A DNA stretch of 34,848 nucleotides from Sulfurimonas sp. SAG-AH-194-C20 (GTDB lineage Bacteria; Campylobacterota; Campylobacteria; Campylobacterales; Sulfurimonadaceae), in NCBI RefSeq assembly GCF_029215975.1, contig NZ_JAEMVD010000012.1, forward strand, positions 1 through 34,848. Direction: 5' to 3'. Positions 29,637 through 34,848 of the stretch are shown in pieces (the first letter of the stretch is position 1; the number at the start of each line of letters is the position of its first letter). A program made the position numbers and the translations under genes. The notes beneath the pieces are model-generated. The model was not told where the DNA came from. It ran no database searches and worked only from the letters and a program-made list of their open reading frames with translations.

Positions 29637-29663
29637 TCAGTTCTTCTTTAGAAGAAGAACTGA
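29637..29663. repeat. Perfect 12-bp stem with 3-nt loop spanning the porin stop codon
   Basis: TCAGTTCTTCTT-TAG-AAGAAGAACTGA on the plus strand; includes the terminal Phe-Phe-Phe-stop codons. Confidence 0.8.
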
Positions 29664-31003
29664 GATGTGAGTTTTATTGTATTTACAGTTCTTTCTCCAT
29701 CTTTAAGTGCGGTTCCATATTTTTCAGTTTGATACACTAAACCAGCTTTGATTGAGTTACCTTTTAAGTACCAGTTTACACCAGCTGTTGCTGCTGTATA
29801 GTCATAACCATCAGTACCTTTGAACTTATCCCAAGACTCATATCTAACAAATGGAGCAAGATAGTTTAATGATTCTATAACATACTCACTCGTTGCATAC
29901 CAACCATTTGATTTACCTAGTTCAGCTAAACCCCATGCTTTAACAACACCATCAAACTCGAAGTACTCAGCTTGAACAAAAAGACCTTTATAGTGTGCAG
30001 ACATTTCTAAGTTTGTTAATGTATGGTCAATTTTCTGCGAAACCACACCATCATCATAGTTAATATTATTGCTAGCCCAGTATGCAGCACCTATCTCAAA
30101 GTGTTTACCCTTAGCAAAGTATGTTTCTGTTCTTGAAGTCTCTTCCCAACCATCAAATGGAGAGAGTACTACTTTTCCACCATAGAAGAAACTACCTTGT
30201 GTTAAACCACCAAAGTTATTTTCTTTACTAAGTGTACTGCCTGAAGCATCTTTCATTTTACCAGAGTAAACACCATCACCTGTTGCTACTTGATAATGAA
30301 CTTTCTTTTCCCAGTTACCGTATGCTTGGATATTTGTTCCACGTCGGTTATGTGTAATGTACTGTGCTGCTTCATCAGCTACTTTTGGTCTATCATATGC
30401 AAGAACTCTAGCAGACTTCACAGTTTCAGTACGAGAAATATCGATTTTAGCACGGTAAAGTTTGAAGTTTACTAAAGATGTGTTAAATGGTTTTTTGATT
30501 TTCACATAAGCATCACCAACGTTAAAGCCTTGCTCACCTTTATCTTCAAAGTTTGCTTTATCATTTCTAACATCCATTACAAAAGAAGTCCACTTGTTAA
30601 AACCAGCAGCTACTTCAAAACGAACACGGCGAAGGTAAGCATCAGGTACACTAGACTTTGACTTAACACTTCCATCAGGATTATAATTTGTTGTATCTGC
30701 ATTTTGGAATGTACCTTGAATACGAACACCCGCTTTTAACCACATATCTGAGTTGTCATCAGCTACAAACTTCATGTTGATGTGAGTCTGTTTTCCAAGT
30801 AAAAAGTCAGGAGACTTTTGATCAACGATAGTGATTGACTTCTTTGGAGACGCAACACTTTTCATATCAAGTGCAGTACGATCAGCTGCAGGAGCAGTAA
30901 ATACTTGACCATTAGCATCTTGGTAAAATTTAATTTCATCTGCGTTTACAGATAAAGAAGCTACAGTTAAAGCAGCAATAGTTGATAAAACAATCTTGTT
31001 CAT
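29648..31003 (-). CDS. Outer membrane porin (phosphate-selective porin O/P-like)
   Basis: Signal peptide, beta-strand-rich sequence, C-terminal Phe (TSQFFF); divergent from pstS with a shared promoter motif. Confidence 0.75.
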   Translation of the reverse strand: MNKIVLSTIAALTVASLSVNADEIKFYQDANGQVFTAPAADRTALDMKSVASPKKSITIVDQKSPDFLLGKQTHINMKFVADDNSDMWLKAGVRIQGTFQNADTTNYNPDGSVKSKSSVPDAYLRRVRFEVAAGFNKWTSFVMDVRNDKANFEDKGEQGFNVGDAYVKIKKPFNTSLVNFKLYRAKIDISRTETVKSARVLAYDRPKVADEAAQYITHNRRGTNIQAYGNWEKKVHYQVATGDGVYSGKMKDASGSTLSKENNFGGLTQGSFFYGGKVVLSPFDGWEETSRTETYFAKGKHFEIGAAYWASNNINYDDGVVSQKIDHTLTNLEMSAHYKGLFVQAEYFEFDGVVKAWGLAELGKSNGWYATSEYVIESLNYLAPFVRYESWDKFKGTDGYDYTAATAGVNWYLKGNSIKAGLVYQTEKYGTALKDGERTVNTIKLTSQFFF

Positions 31004-31038: not shown

Positions 31039-31070
31039 AGTATATTGCAAAGCGATTACATTATGGTTAC
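31039..31070 (-). promoter_or_regulatory. PHO-box-like promoter of the porin
   Basis: Minus strand GTAAC-CATAAT-GTAAT then 10 nt then TATACT (31044-31039). Confidence 0.7.
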
Positions 31071-31145
31071 AGCAGGAAATATAATGTATAATGTTACCGA
31101 CAGAAGGCTCTTATATATGTAAGGCTTAAGATGCCAAACTTCCTT

Positions 31146-31177
31146 GTAACTAAAGCGTAACCCAAGTGTTTTATAAT
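31146..31177 (+). promoter_or_regulatory. PHO-box-like promoter of pstS
   Basis: GTAAC (31146-31150)-TAAAGC-GTAAC (31157-31161), 10 nt, TATAAT (31172-31177). Confidence 0.75.
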
Positions 31178-31209
31178 TTCAGCACTTAAACATAAAAAGG
31201 CTTAGATAA

Positions 31210-32259
31210 ATGATAAGTGATAAATCACAATGCAAAAAACCACTAAATGGTTTTCGTACCAAACTTATAAGAGTAGCACTAGCAAGTACAATGCTCCTTA
31301 CATCACTAAACGCGAACGATGTTCTCAAAGGTAGTGGAGCGTCTTTCCCATATAGTGTTTACCAAAAATGGATTAAAGCTTACAACAAAGAAACAGGTAT
31401 AAAAATTGACTACATAAAAAAAGGTTCTTCAAAAGGTATCAAAGATGCTAAAGCTCGTGCAGTTAATTTTGCTGGAACAGACAAACCTTTAAGTCCTAAA
31501 GTGCTTCGTAAAAATAAGCTTTATCAGTTTCCTGCTGTTGTAGGTGCAATCACAATGGGATATAATCTTCCTGGTATAAGGGGGCTCAAACTATCTCGCG
31601 GAGCAACGGTAGCTATCGCTAATGGTAGTGCTAAGTACTGGGATGATGCAGTTATTGCTTCTGCAAACGTAGGACTTAAACTTCCACACGAAAGGCTTAC
31701 ATTTGTTCACCGTGCTGATGGTTCAGGAACTACATATAACTTCACTTACTACCTTTCAAAAGTAGACAAAGAATGGAGAAAAACATTTGGTGCTAAAAAG
31801 TCCCTTAACTGGCCTGGGAATCATCATATTGGCGGGAAGACAAACTCTGGTGTTGCGGCACTTCTTAAACAGACTACATACTCAGTAGGATATATCGACT
31901 ATGCTGATGCTAAAAACAACAACATCGCTATGGCAACAGTAGAAAATCGTGAAGGTCACTTCATCTTACCAACACTTAAGTCTTTTCAAATGGCAACTGC
32001 AAAAGCAACACTTAATCCAAAAAGAGATTTTTATGCTGTGATCACTGATCCAAAAGGTGCAGAGTCTTACCCTATGGTAGCTGCTACATTTATCTTAGTA
32101 CCAGCAGAAAAAACACAGATGAACAAAAAAGTTACTGCCTTTTATGACTGGTGTTATACAAATGGTCAAGATATTGCAAAAGGTCTAGGTTTTGTTCCAT
32201 TACCCAAATCTTTAACTGCTAAAATTCACACTTATTGGGCTAAAAAAGGGATTAAATAA
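31210..32259 (+). CDS. pstS: Phosphate ABC transporter substrate-binding protein
   Basis: LKGSGASFPYSVYQKWIKAYNKETGIKIDYIKKGSSKGIKDA, DKPLSP, VHRADGSGTTYNFTYYLS, GYIDYADAK. Confidence 0.95.
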   Translation: MISDKSQCKKPLNGFRTKLIRVALASTMLLTSLNANDVLKGSGASFPYSVYQKWIKAYNKETGIKIDYIKKGSSKGIKDAKARAVNFAGTDKPLSPKVLRKNKLYQFPAVVGAITMGYNLPGIRGLKLSRGATVAIANGSAKYWDDAVIASANVGLKLPHERLTFVHRADGSGTTYNFTYYLSKVDKEWRKTFGAKKSLNWPGNHHIGGKTNSGVAALLKQTTYSVGYIDYADAKNNNIAMATVENREGHFILPTLKSFQMATAKATLNPKRDFYAVITDPKGAESYPMVAATFILVPAEKTQMNKKVTAFYDWCYTNGQDIAKGLGFVPLPKSLTAKIHTYWAKKGIK

Positions 32260-32279
32260 TATTATTAGTCTAGTTGTGC

Positions 32280-32285
32280 TATAAT
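32280..32285 (+). promoter_or_regulatory. Candidate -10 element, predicted leaderless start of the 568-aa gene
   Basis: TATAAT with 7 nt before the ATG at 32293; no Shine-Dalgarno. Confidence 0.5.
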
Positions 32286-32292
32286 TCTCATT

Positions 32293-33999
32293 ATGAACAA
32301 TATTTTATCACATTCGTTAACATTCAAAACAGACTCTCTCACTTCTCAAACAGGTAAACTAGAAAACATCCTCTACTTGAGTGATGAGAATAGTTCTAAA
32401 CATTTTGTGCAATACATTCAGTACCATGAAAACAATGATGATTCAATTGATGTAAGACATATTAGTATAAAAGTAGATAGGTCTTATTTTTTAGAAATAG
32501 CAAATATTTGTATAAGTAATAAAGAGAGAAGAAGACACTTTTTTTCTACCTTAGGAAAACGGCGTTTTGGTGCTTCAAACAAACATTTAGATTGCTACTT
32601 CGCGCATTTAGATTTTAATGAAAAGTCTCTCCATCAAAAATACCTCAGCCATTATGAATATATAGAGTTTGAGCCTTGTCACAGTATTACTACAAAGTAT
32701 TCTACAAATAAGTATCGTATTTATATCCAAGAAGAGGAAAACCTACATATAGTTTTTTTAGACCAACTAAATATATCATCAAGAAAAAAAATACATAAAA
32801 TATTTTGTACAGACCTCAGCGATGATGACTTAGCTTTATATAATGGCATTACAACTTCATCTCAAAAAATTAACTATATTTTTAATAAAATAGGAAAGCA
32901 TTACTTTAAGAACTTAACAGCGACTCATCTTCAAAGAACTAAACAGTACAAAACAAATGAGGACTTAGCTCTTTCAATGCTTATTAAAGATTCTCAGGCG
33001 ATGGAGAGAAGTTCACGTATTCAGGATAATACTACTTTTAGAAAACTTCAAGAAAAACAAAATGATATGAAGCCTATTTTAGATGCCCTTTATAAAGAAG
33101 CAAACAAATTTATTCTAAACCCATGTGCTCAGACAGCTGAACTTTTCACTAGAGAACTTCAAATGTTTCAAGTATGCATAAAAGGTATAAATGGGCTTAA
33201 AGATATTTCGGATTATCTACAAGAGGTTTACGAACTAAGCACCAAAAATACAATTTCTTACTTACTTTCAAAAGATGATGAGGACTTACAAGATATATTT
33301 TTATATGTACTTGAAGTTTTTCACACATGGAATAAGCATCTTTTTGATGAAAATGAAGATATAAAATCTTTTAATTCTGTATCTATTGATTTAGCTGATG
33401 CTTTTCGTTACTTTGTTGATGTATGTTATAAATTTAAACATGACTATAAATGTACTGATGCTGAAGAAGAGATACAAAAAGAGGTAAGTACTGCACTTGA
33501 GTTAGAAACTCAGCAAGAGCCAGAGAATGAACTAACAATTAAAACACCTGTTTATACCTCTGCTCAAAGTTATTTTGCCGAAATCGACCTTGATTCAGAG
33601 GTTTATGATGAACTTCTTGAACTCGAAAGAGAAGTAGATGTTCTTAGCTATGCATCCTCATACAACGAAGATATAAATGCTACTCTTATTAACTTTTTTG
33701 AAGGTTACACAAGGGTACTAAATCCTCTTTTTGAGTTTAAAGATCTTAGTTACTCTCTTATGCTACTCACACAAAAACTAACAGACTACGAGATAGATGA
33801 AAACAGTGAAATGCTTCTTATTTTAATGCGAGGATTAATTTCAGATTTACTCGAGTGGAAACGCTCTGTTTTAATCGAGCAAACTGCTGAAGATATTCAC
33901 TTTATGGATAAATCTTTTTACTCTAACATTGCACAAATCGAGATGTCTTTAGATAGTAATGACTTAGCCGAAGATGATGGTGAGATGGAGTTTTTCTAA
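32293..33999 (+). CDS. Uncharacterised protein encoded between pstS and pstC
   Basis: 568-aa ORF, no family recognised; basic/aromatic N-terminal half, acidic helical C-terminal half ending DDGEMEFF. Confidence 0.8.
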   Translation: MNNILSHSLTFKTDSLTSQTGKLENILYLSDENSSKHFVQYIQYHENNDDSIDVRHISIKVDRSYFLEIANICISNKERRRHFFSTLGKRRFGASNKHLDCYFAHLDFNEKSLHQKYLSHYEYIEFEPCHSITTKYSTNKYRIYIQEEENLHIVFLDQLNISSRKKIHKIFCTDLSDDDLALYNGITTSSQKINYIFNKIGKHYFKNLTATHLQRTKQYKTNEDLALSMLIKDSQAMERSSRIQDNTTFRKLQEKQNDMKPILDALYKEANKFILNPCAQTAELFTRELQMFQVCIKGINGLKDISDYLQEVYELSTKNTISYLLSKDDEDLQDIFLYVLEVFHTWNKHLFDENEDIKSFNSVSIDLADAFRYFVDVCYKFKHDYKCTDAEEEIQKEVSTALELETQQEPENELTIKTPVYTSAQSYFAEIDLDSEVYDELLELEREVDVLSYASSYNEDINATLINFFEGYTRVLNPLFEFKDLSYSLMLLTQKLTDYEIDENSEMLLILMRGLISDLLEWKRSVLIEQTAEDIHFMDKSFYSNIAQIEMSLDSNDLAEDDGEMEFF

Positions 34000-34004
34000 C
34001 TTTT

Positions 34005-34036
34005 GTAACCTTAACGTAACCGAACTTCTATAAAAT
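34005..34036 (+). promoter_or_regulatory. PHO-box-like promoter of pstC
   Basis: GTAAC (34005-34009)-CTTAAC-GTAAC (34016-34020), 10 nt, TAAAAT (34031-34036). Confidence 0.7.
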
Positions 34037-34042
34037 TTCACT

Positions 34043-34848
34043 ATGGAAAAAATATTTCAAAGACTTGCACTCTCAAGTGCATCACTTGTGTTTATTCTAC
34101 TAGTAGGTATCTTTATCACTCTGTATATAACTGCTAAACCTGCAATTGATGAGTTTGGATTTAACTTCATTACAGATTCTCACTGGAACAAGAATGTTGT
34201 TTTAGAAGCAGAAGATGACATGATGCTCGATGAAGATGACATGATGCTAGATGATGAAGATGACCTCATTACAAAGACTATCTATGGTGGACTTGTGCCC
34301 ATAGTAGGGACACTACTTACAACTCTTATAGCTCTTGCATTTTCACTTCCTATCGCAATGGGCATAGCAGTATTTCTAGCAGAAATTGCCCCTAAAAACA
34401 TCTCCGACATTGTCGGTATTGCCATTGAACTTTTAGCGGCTATTCCCTCCATCATCTTTGGTATGTGGGGACTTTACTATTTTGCCCCTATCATCGCTGA
34501 CTTGTTTGGTGGGTATCAAGTCTCACTTCTTACCGCTGGACTTGTACTTGGTGTTATGATACTTCCCTTTATGGCAGCCATCACAAGAGATAGTATGAAC
34601 ACAACTCCTGGGGTTTTAAAAGAGTCTGCTTATGCACTTGGGGCTACAAAGTTTGAAGTCATAAAGGACATCATCTTTCCATATTCTAAGGTCGGTATCA
34701 TCGGAAGTATCATCTTAGCACTTGGTCGTGCTTTAGGTGAAACTATGGCTGTTGCTTTTCTTATAGGTAGCATTTTTGTTCTACCAAGTAAGATTACAGA
34801 CCCAACTATCTCTATCCCTGTTGCGATGGCAAACAACTTTGGTGAAGC
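34043..34848 (+). CDS. pstC: Phosphate ABC transporter permease, truncated at window end
   Basis: ATG at 34043 reads MEKIFQRLALSSASLVFILLVGIF...IYGGLVPIVGTLLTTLIALAFSLPIAMGIAVFLAEIAP...AAIPSIIFGMWGLYYF...ALGATKFEVIKDIIFPYSKVGIIGSIILALGRALGETMAVAFLIG; open to the end of the window. Confidence 0.94.
   Translation, partial: MEKIFQRLALSSASLVFILLVGIFITLYITAKPAIDEFGFNFITDSHWNKNVVLEAEDDMMLDEDDMMLDDEDDLITKTIYGGLVPIVGTLLTTLIALAFSLPIAMGIAVFLAEIAPKNISDIVGIAIELLAAIPSIIFGMWGLYYFAPIIADLFGGYQVSLLTAGLVLGVMILPFMAAITRDSMNTTPGVLKESAYALGATKFEVIKDIIFPYSKVGIIGSIILALGRALGETMAVAFLIGSIFVLPSKITDPTISIPVAMANNFGE
34211..34264 (+). repeat. In-frame 21-bp tandem repeat within pstC (EDDMMLD x2 plus partial third)
   Basis: GAAGATGACATGATGCTCGAT / GAAGATGACATGATGCTAGAT (20/21 identical) then GATGAAGATGAC. 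Confidence 0.9.

Follow-up and report, generated by a model that had tools for sequence, protein, structure and literature searches.

Three promoter sites with a shared architecture were found in the window, by which we mean the whole 34,848-nucleotide stretch of contig NZ_JAEMVD010000012.1 of Sulfurimonas sp. SAG-AH-194-C20 (assembly GCF_029215975.1) that was analysed. These sites are very probably PHO boxes at which a PhoB/PhosR-type response regulator (L025) replaces the −35 element and switches on a porin gene, pstS and pstC under phosphate limitation. The sites, their geometry, their conservation, the genes downstream of them and the encoded regulator/kinase pair were all observed directly.

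Promoter sites and genes in the window

The porin site lies on the reverse strand at positions 31039..31070 (GTAAC-CATAAT-GTAAT-N10-TATACT; GTAACCATAATGTAATCGCTTTGCAATATACT), the pstS site on the forward strand at 31146..31177 (GTAAC-TAAAGC-GTAAC-N10-TATAAT; GTAACTAAAGCGTAACCCAAGTGTTTTATAAT) and the pstC site, also on the forward strand, at 34005..34036 (GTAAC-CTTAAC-GTAAC-N10-TAAAAT; GTAACCTTAACGTAACCGAACTTCTATAAAAT). This agrees with the original prediction, which had claimed an identical layout at these three promoters, and the flanking bases which it described as common to pstS and pstC (TTGTAAC ... GTAACC.AA ... ATTTCA) are also present. A nuance absent from that prediction is that the three sites differ in their placement relative to the start codons, the distance from box start to start codon being 67 bp for the porin, 64 bp for pstS and just 38 bp for pstC. 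The features of a PHO box that were found are tandem direct repeats with an 11-bp period (in the window sites and in the family-wide gap histogram), a last repeat approximately 10 bp upstream of a sigma-70 −10 and in the place of the −35, and a position upstream of phosphate-acquisition genes, with the sites being rare elsewhere. The repeats read GTAAC or GTAAT, and have neither the CTGTCAT letters of the E. coli-type PHO box nor the GTTTC letters of the Campylobacter jejuni PhosR box.

At the porin promoter a third repeat-like sequence, GCAAT, extends the 11-bp step and overlaps the −10. The porin-side site is kept in the close relatives L037-L039, where the third repeat is GTAAT. The closest relatives have such a third half-site before the porin gene, but it was found at 0 of 43 pstS sites, and we rejected it as a general feature.

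The porin site precedes a gene which is divergent from pstS and encodes an outer-membrane porin-like protein of 451 aa (29648..31003, reverse strand); this protein had no Pfam match, and its NCBIfam match to porin ExtI was weak and below cut-off. The phosphate-binding protein gene pstS (31210..32259, forward strand) matched TIGR00975 with 305.6 bits against a cut-off of 205; the closest named relative of its product is from Sulfurimonas sp. SAG-AH-194-C21 (87% identity), and a second locus, L038, encodes a protein with 88% identity. The phosphate permease gene pstC (34043..34846, forward strand; TIGR02138, 243.1 bits against a cut-off of 196.45) is cut by the contig end. Between pstS and pstC lies a 568-aa ORF without an assigned function (32293..33999, forward strand), for which no Pfam or NCBIfam match was found and whose only relatives among all loci fetched were in the close Sulfurimonas loci L037, L038 and L039.

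Because the pstC −10 ends 6 nt before the ATG and no ribosome site is present (window positions 34005-34046), the pstC mRNA originating from its own box is predicted to be leaderless. The same short arrangement was found at pstC in L037, L038 and L044; in other relatives the box-to-start distance was 58-73 bp. RNA structure at the pstC start was not significant (z = 0.63). Transcription from the pstS promoter may also continue through the 568-aa ORF into pstC. For the porin and pstS, a start approximately 7 nt past the −10 would leave a normal leader with a ribosome site.

Frequency of the motif

In a genome-wide search of the kind originally proposed, exact matches to GTAAYN6GTAAYN10TAWAMT were found three times in the whole assembly (1,629,092 bases, 66% complete), and these were the porin, pstS and pstC sites only. 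Allowing up to 2 mismatches, 4 matches were seen within the window, including the 3 exact sites, where 0.72 were expected. Across 151 family genomes, GTAACN6GTAAYN10TAWAMT gave 136 matches, as counted from the matches listed, compared to 8 for the reversed pattern, a 17-fold difference. At the reversed-pattern rate of approximately 0.05 per genome the Poisson chance of three matches is approximately 2e−5, or 2e−4 with the rate doubled, figures which exclude the clustering of all three sites in 3 kb. The extended pattern TGTAAYCN5GTAAYN10TANNNT was found 5, 3 and 4 times in three complete or nearly complete genomes, a total of 12 compared to 0 for the control. The motif is thus not at background frequency before unrelated genes, which the original prediction had named as the result that would count against it, and the genes concerned are mainly of Pho type.

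Relaxed patterns with 1-2 mismatches gave no convincing extra site in the genome itself, and the sole 1-mismatch match (C78:25961) had no suitable downstream ORF. Since these one- and two-mismatch matches were at background, the signal rests on the exact sites. That background level is what would be seen if the sites had arisen by chance, the genome being AT-rich, or were promoter flanks passed on by descent to which no regulator binds. However, the exact matches exceed the reversed controls to the extent given above, none were found in control stretches of the same loci, and the sites are conserved at non-homologous promoters with fixed geometry. We therefore give this explanation almost no credence for the window, and for the family it is already refuted.

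We inspected the downstream gene at 42 family sites, and most of these genes start 55-70 bp past the box. Among them are pstC (n = 13), pstS (3 close homologues), a further phosphate-binding protein (L072), Pho/porin-type proteins of the outer membrane, a phosphate transporter of PHO4 type (L066), a chemoreceptor (L080) and a protein in which an acyltransferase is joined to a GNAT domain (Acyltransf_2 + Acetyltransf_5; L204, and L079 by similarity). We take this domain make-up to be that of OlsF-type ornithine-lipid synthases. The boxes before the acyltransferase-GNAT fusion and the chemoreceptor suggest that lipid remodelling and phosphate taxis lie within the regulon of family genomes. It should be noted that a few exact family matches precede genes without an evident phosphate role (prepilin-like, DUF3450 and TonB-type).

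Geometry across Campylobacterales and in other bacteria

From 100 genomes of the order we took 20-kb stretches surrounding pstB and measured the spacing of two TGTWAY hexamers upstream of pstS, pstC, phoU and porin homologues. In these 100 genomes the spacing was 11 bp in 55 pairs, with no other distance occurring in more than 3, and control stretches taken another 300 bp upstream had no 11-bp pairs. Of 81 sites, 75 had their best −10-like hexamer 10 nt past the second pentamer, in a set with one genome per species where box calls required a −10 and a ribosome-site-like start and are thus biased to canonical sites. In E. coli MG1655 the pstS promoter has the sequence CTGTCATAAAACTGTCATATTCCTTACATATAACTGTCACCTGTTTGTCCTATTTT; its repeats fall on an 11-bp lattice, and 10 nt separate the last pentamer, GTCAC, from the −10. 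This 10-bp position has been described for the PHO boxes of E. coli (PMC1906773). The shared spacing bears out the earlier suggestion that a PhoB-type box stands in place of the −35. Since the 11-bp lattice and the 10-nt spacing are as in E. coli pstS, the architecture in the window is, judged from the sequence, that of a classical PHO box.

The box had originally been described as differing from that of E. coli. The letters do differ, but not by far: GTAAY and GTCAY are one base apart, and both systems have direct repeats on an 11-bp lattice, a last pentamer 10 nt before the −10 and a TGTNAY core. At the third base of the pentamer E. coli has C where A or T is found here, and E. coli pstS has four lattice positions whereas the window pstS and pstC sites have two repeats. 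The box had also been called a lineage-specific PHO box; the comparison supports the PHO-box part of this description, but the lineage appears to be most of the order rather than Sulfurimonas, with further drift in some families. On the evidence of these genomes, GTAAY-N6-GTAAY-N10-(−10) is very probably the PHO box of Campylobacterales.

Similar layouts exist in other phyla. The cyanobacterial SphR box (CTTAACCT, with 3-bp linkers) shares the 11-bp repeat period and has an AACC core resembling GTAACC (PMC1906773), but it lacks the GT, at least 3 repeats are reported, and both phylum and regulator are different. The PhoP box of Streptomyces coelicolor (GTTCACC-N4-GTTCACC) shares a 7-bp repeat, a 4-bp spacer and a GT start with the window sites (PMC4832192), but has TCACC in place of AACC and belongs to a GC-rich lineage. 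We found no description of a GTAAC-type PHO box in Sulfurimonas or its relatives in the openly accessible literature.

Candidate regulator

The genome contains 12 Trans_reg_C (OmpR-type) matches. One of these, L025, is a 222-aa response regulator on contig C5 whose best family is PhoB (TIGR02154); its score of 168.2 bits is below the curated equivalog cut-off of 296.2, and we therefore refer to it as PhoB/PhosR-type and not as PhoB. The best family of the adjoining kinase is PhoR (TIGR02966; 140 bits against a cut-off of 334). L025 alone among the 12 matches carries the helix KTVNVAIKRLK, which differs from that of E. coli PhoB by D196N, H198A and R203K. A regulator 87% identical to L025 lies directly after pstSCAB-phoU in L037, and regulators of this class are linked to pst in many families. 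The N196-x-A198-x-x-R201 helix, the PhoR-like partner kinase and the pst/phoU linkage in relatives place L025 among PhosR-type Campylobacterales regulators. As its best family is PhoB, its neighbour is PhoR-like and its relatives are linked to pst, L025 is likely to be the cognate regulator. The contig end truncates the pst cluster in this assembly, and L025 is located elsewhere, not beside pst. At 66% completeness, the assembly could lack a second candidate regulator.

One or two further PhoB-like response regulators were seen upstream of the porin in three loci of relatives (L037:3000-4365, L038:3080-4385 and L052:2982-3662), and in L037 and L052 a GTAAY-type box lies before the first of these. 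In the Sulfurimonas loci L041, L180-L182 and L184, pstB-phoU is followed by a kinase with no adjacent regulator, and the N-V-A regulator is encoded elsewhere.

A different OmpR-family response regulator, answering to another signal such as envelope stress, might happen to control pst and porins; there are 12 Trans_reg_C matches to choose from, and in L037 two more regulators resembling PhoB lie upstream of the porin gene. However, in this genome the N-V-A-R201 helix is confined to L025, the class of L025 is encoded beside pst/phoU in many families, genomes with a different class of pst-linked regulator have different repeats (TTTACA), and the counterpart pair in C. jejuni is known to be PhosR. 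We consider such a regulator improbable.

The preferred reading, that L025 acts at the three sites, would work as follows, with binding, phosphate dependence and activation taken by analogy from known PhoB biology. At low phosphate the PhoR-like kinase would phosphorylate the PhoB/PhosR-type regulator (here L025), which would bind the two direct repeats as a head-to-tail pair of winged-helix domains, the 11-bp distance putting both repeats on one face of the DNA helix. With 10 bp between the end of the second repeat and the −10, the box would take the place of a −35 element; the regulator would recruit sigma-70 RNA polymerase, with transcription starting approximately 7 nt after the −10, and the porin, pstS and pstC would be switched on. 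The Campylobacterales letters (TGTAAYC repeats) are plausibly set by D196N and H198A relative to the E. coli recognition helix, and a further change from V197 to I/T would accompany the GTWTC boxes of Campylobacteraceae.

Box letters and residue 197

Repeats were GTAAY in most families, including that of the window, and GTTAY in one (f5). GTTTC or GTATC repeats were found in f3, together with a few f2 genomes; we read f3 as Campylobacteraceae on the basis that C. jejuni is in it. One f3 genome was identified as C. jejuni by primers from PMC6250842, of which the four for pstS/pstC and both for phosR match without mismatch. C. jejuni PhosR is reported to control pstSCAB (PMC3197622). The C. jejuni pstS box is TGTTTCCAAAATGTTTCC (GTTTCC-N5-GTTTCC), so that the GTTTC-type PhosR box which the original prediction had named can be read in the sequence, and the PhosR helix is KTINIALTRLR. 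This box is like those of the window in geometry, bacterial order, regulator class (N196, A198, R201) and target genes, but unlike them in its repeats (GTTTC and not GTAAY) and in residue 197 (I and not V).

In regulators of the L025 class residue 196 is N or rarely T, residue 198 is A or rarely T, and residue 201 is R; the E. coli PhoB helix, checked against 1GXP/3T72, is RTVDVHIRRLR. In PhoB-DNA crystals R201 hydrogen-bonds a guanine, and T194 and V197 contact thymines (PMC3973317). We found that residue 197 was V with A at the fourth pentamer base and I/T with T (34 and 11 genomes respectively, with one exception). When regulators away from pst were added, V occurred with GTWAY in 43 of 43 genomes and I/T with GTWTC in 16 of 17, these counts being of genomes with callable boxes (leaving out, for example, G167, G297 and G339). 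Fisher tests on genome counts gave 1e−9 for the first set and 1e−13 for the extended set, values which are overstated by kinship. Since residue 197 changes at most twice on the regulator tree, which yields one or two independent pairs, genome statistics overstate the association and it has no significance after phylogeny. D196N was dropped as an explanation for the fourth pentamer base after alignment to the E. coli pstS promoter; residue 196 could at most be related to the third base.

The association between residue 197 and the box is suggestive of recognition. Tentatively, and with rather less than even confidence, we propose that the change from V197 to I/T rewired the Campylobacteraceae PHO box from GTWAY to GTWTC, atop an older, order-wide change at 196/198 which turned the third base from C to A/T. 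There is an even chance that helix and box are instead associated by shared ancestry, with the Campylobacteraceae regulator and boxes having drifted together (e.g. by shortening of the loop before the helix or AT drift). The few changes on the tree are as expected from this, I/T regulators also have a shorter loop ahead of the helix, and mixed half-sites occur with both residues. On the other hand, residue 197 is a base-contacting position in PhoB, and the 43 of 43 and 16 of 17 genomes obey the rule.

A contrasting class was found in 18 genomes (mostly f2, with some f3 and f6), where a different pst-linked regulator has D196, H198 and usually T201 in place of R201. No GT box was found in these 18 genomes, and most have TTTACA repeats at 11-, 22- and 33-bp steps upstream of the pst operon, located approximately 60-120 bp upstream of its first gene (L093, L113, L114, L189-L192 and others). 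The loss of R201 together with the G that it reads fits the known contact. TTTACA repeats resemble Firmicutes-type Pho operators, and this regulator and its repeats are probably a second, separately acquired Pho system.

Discussion

The PHO-box layout is as known from E. coli; what appears to be different here are the letters, which vary by family together with a single regulator residue that contacts the DNA. If recognition through residue 197 is true, the order preserves a natural series in which operator and regulator changed together at many promoters, and the mixed half-sites (GTAAC/GTATC and GTTTC/GTTAT) would be intermediates. With regulators forming a graded series beside an operator that is already well studied, the role of a few helix residues in base recognition could also be tested directly. 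The box provides a usable sequence signature for the Campylobacterales phosphate regulon, by which Pho genes may be predicted from genomes, those of sulfur oxidisers from vents and sediments and those of Campylobacter alike. Beyond pst, the matches already cover a PHO4 transporter, a chemoreceptor and a fused acyltransferase of a type that serves to make phosphorus-free ornithine lipids.
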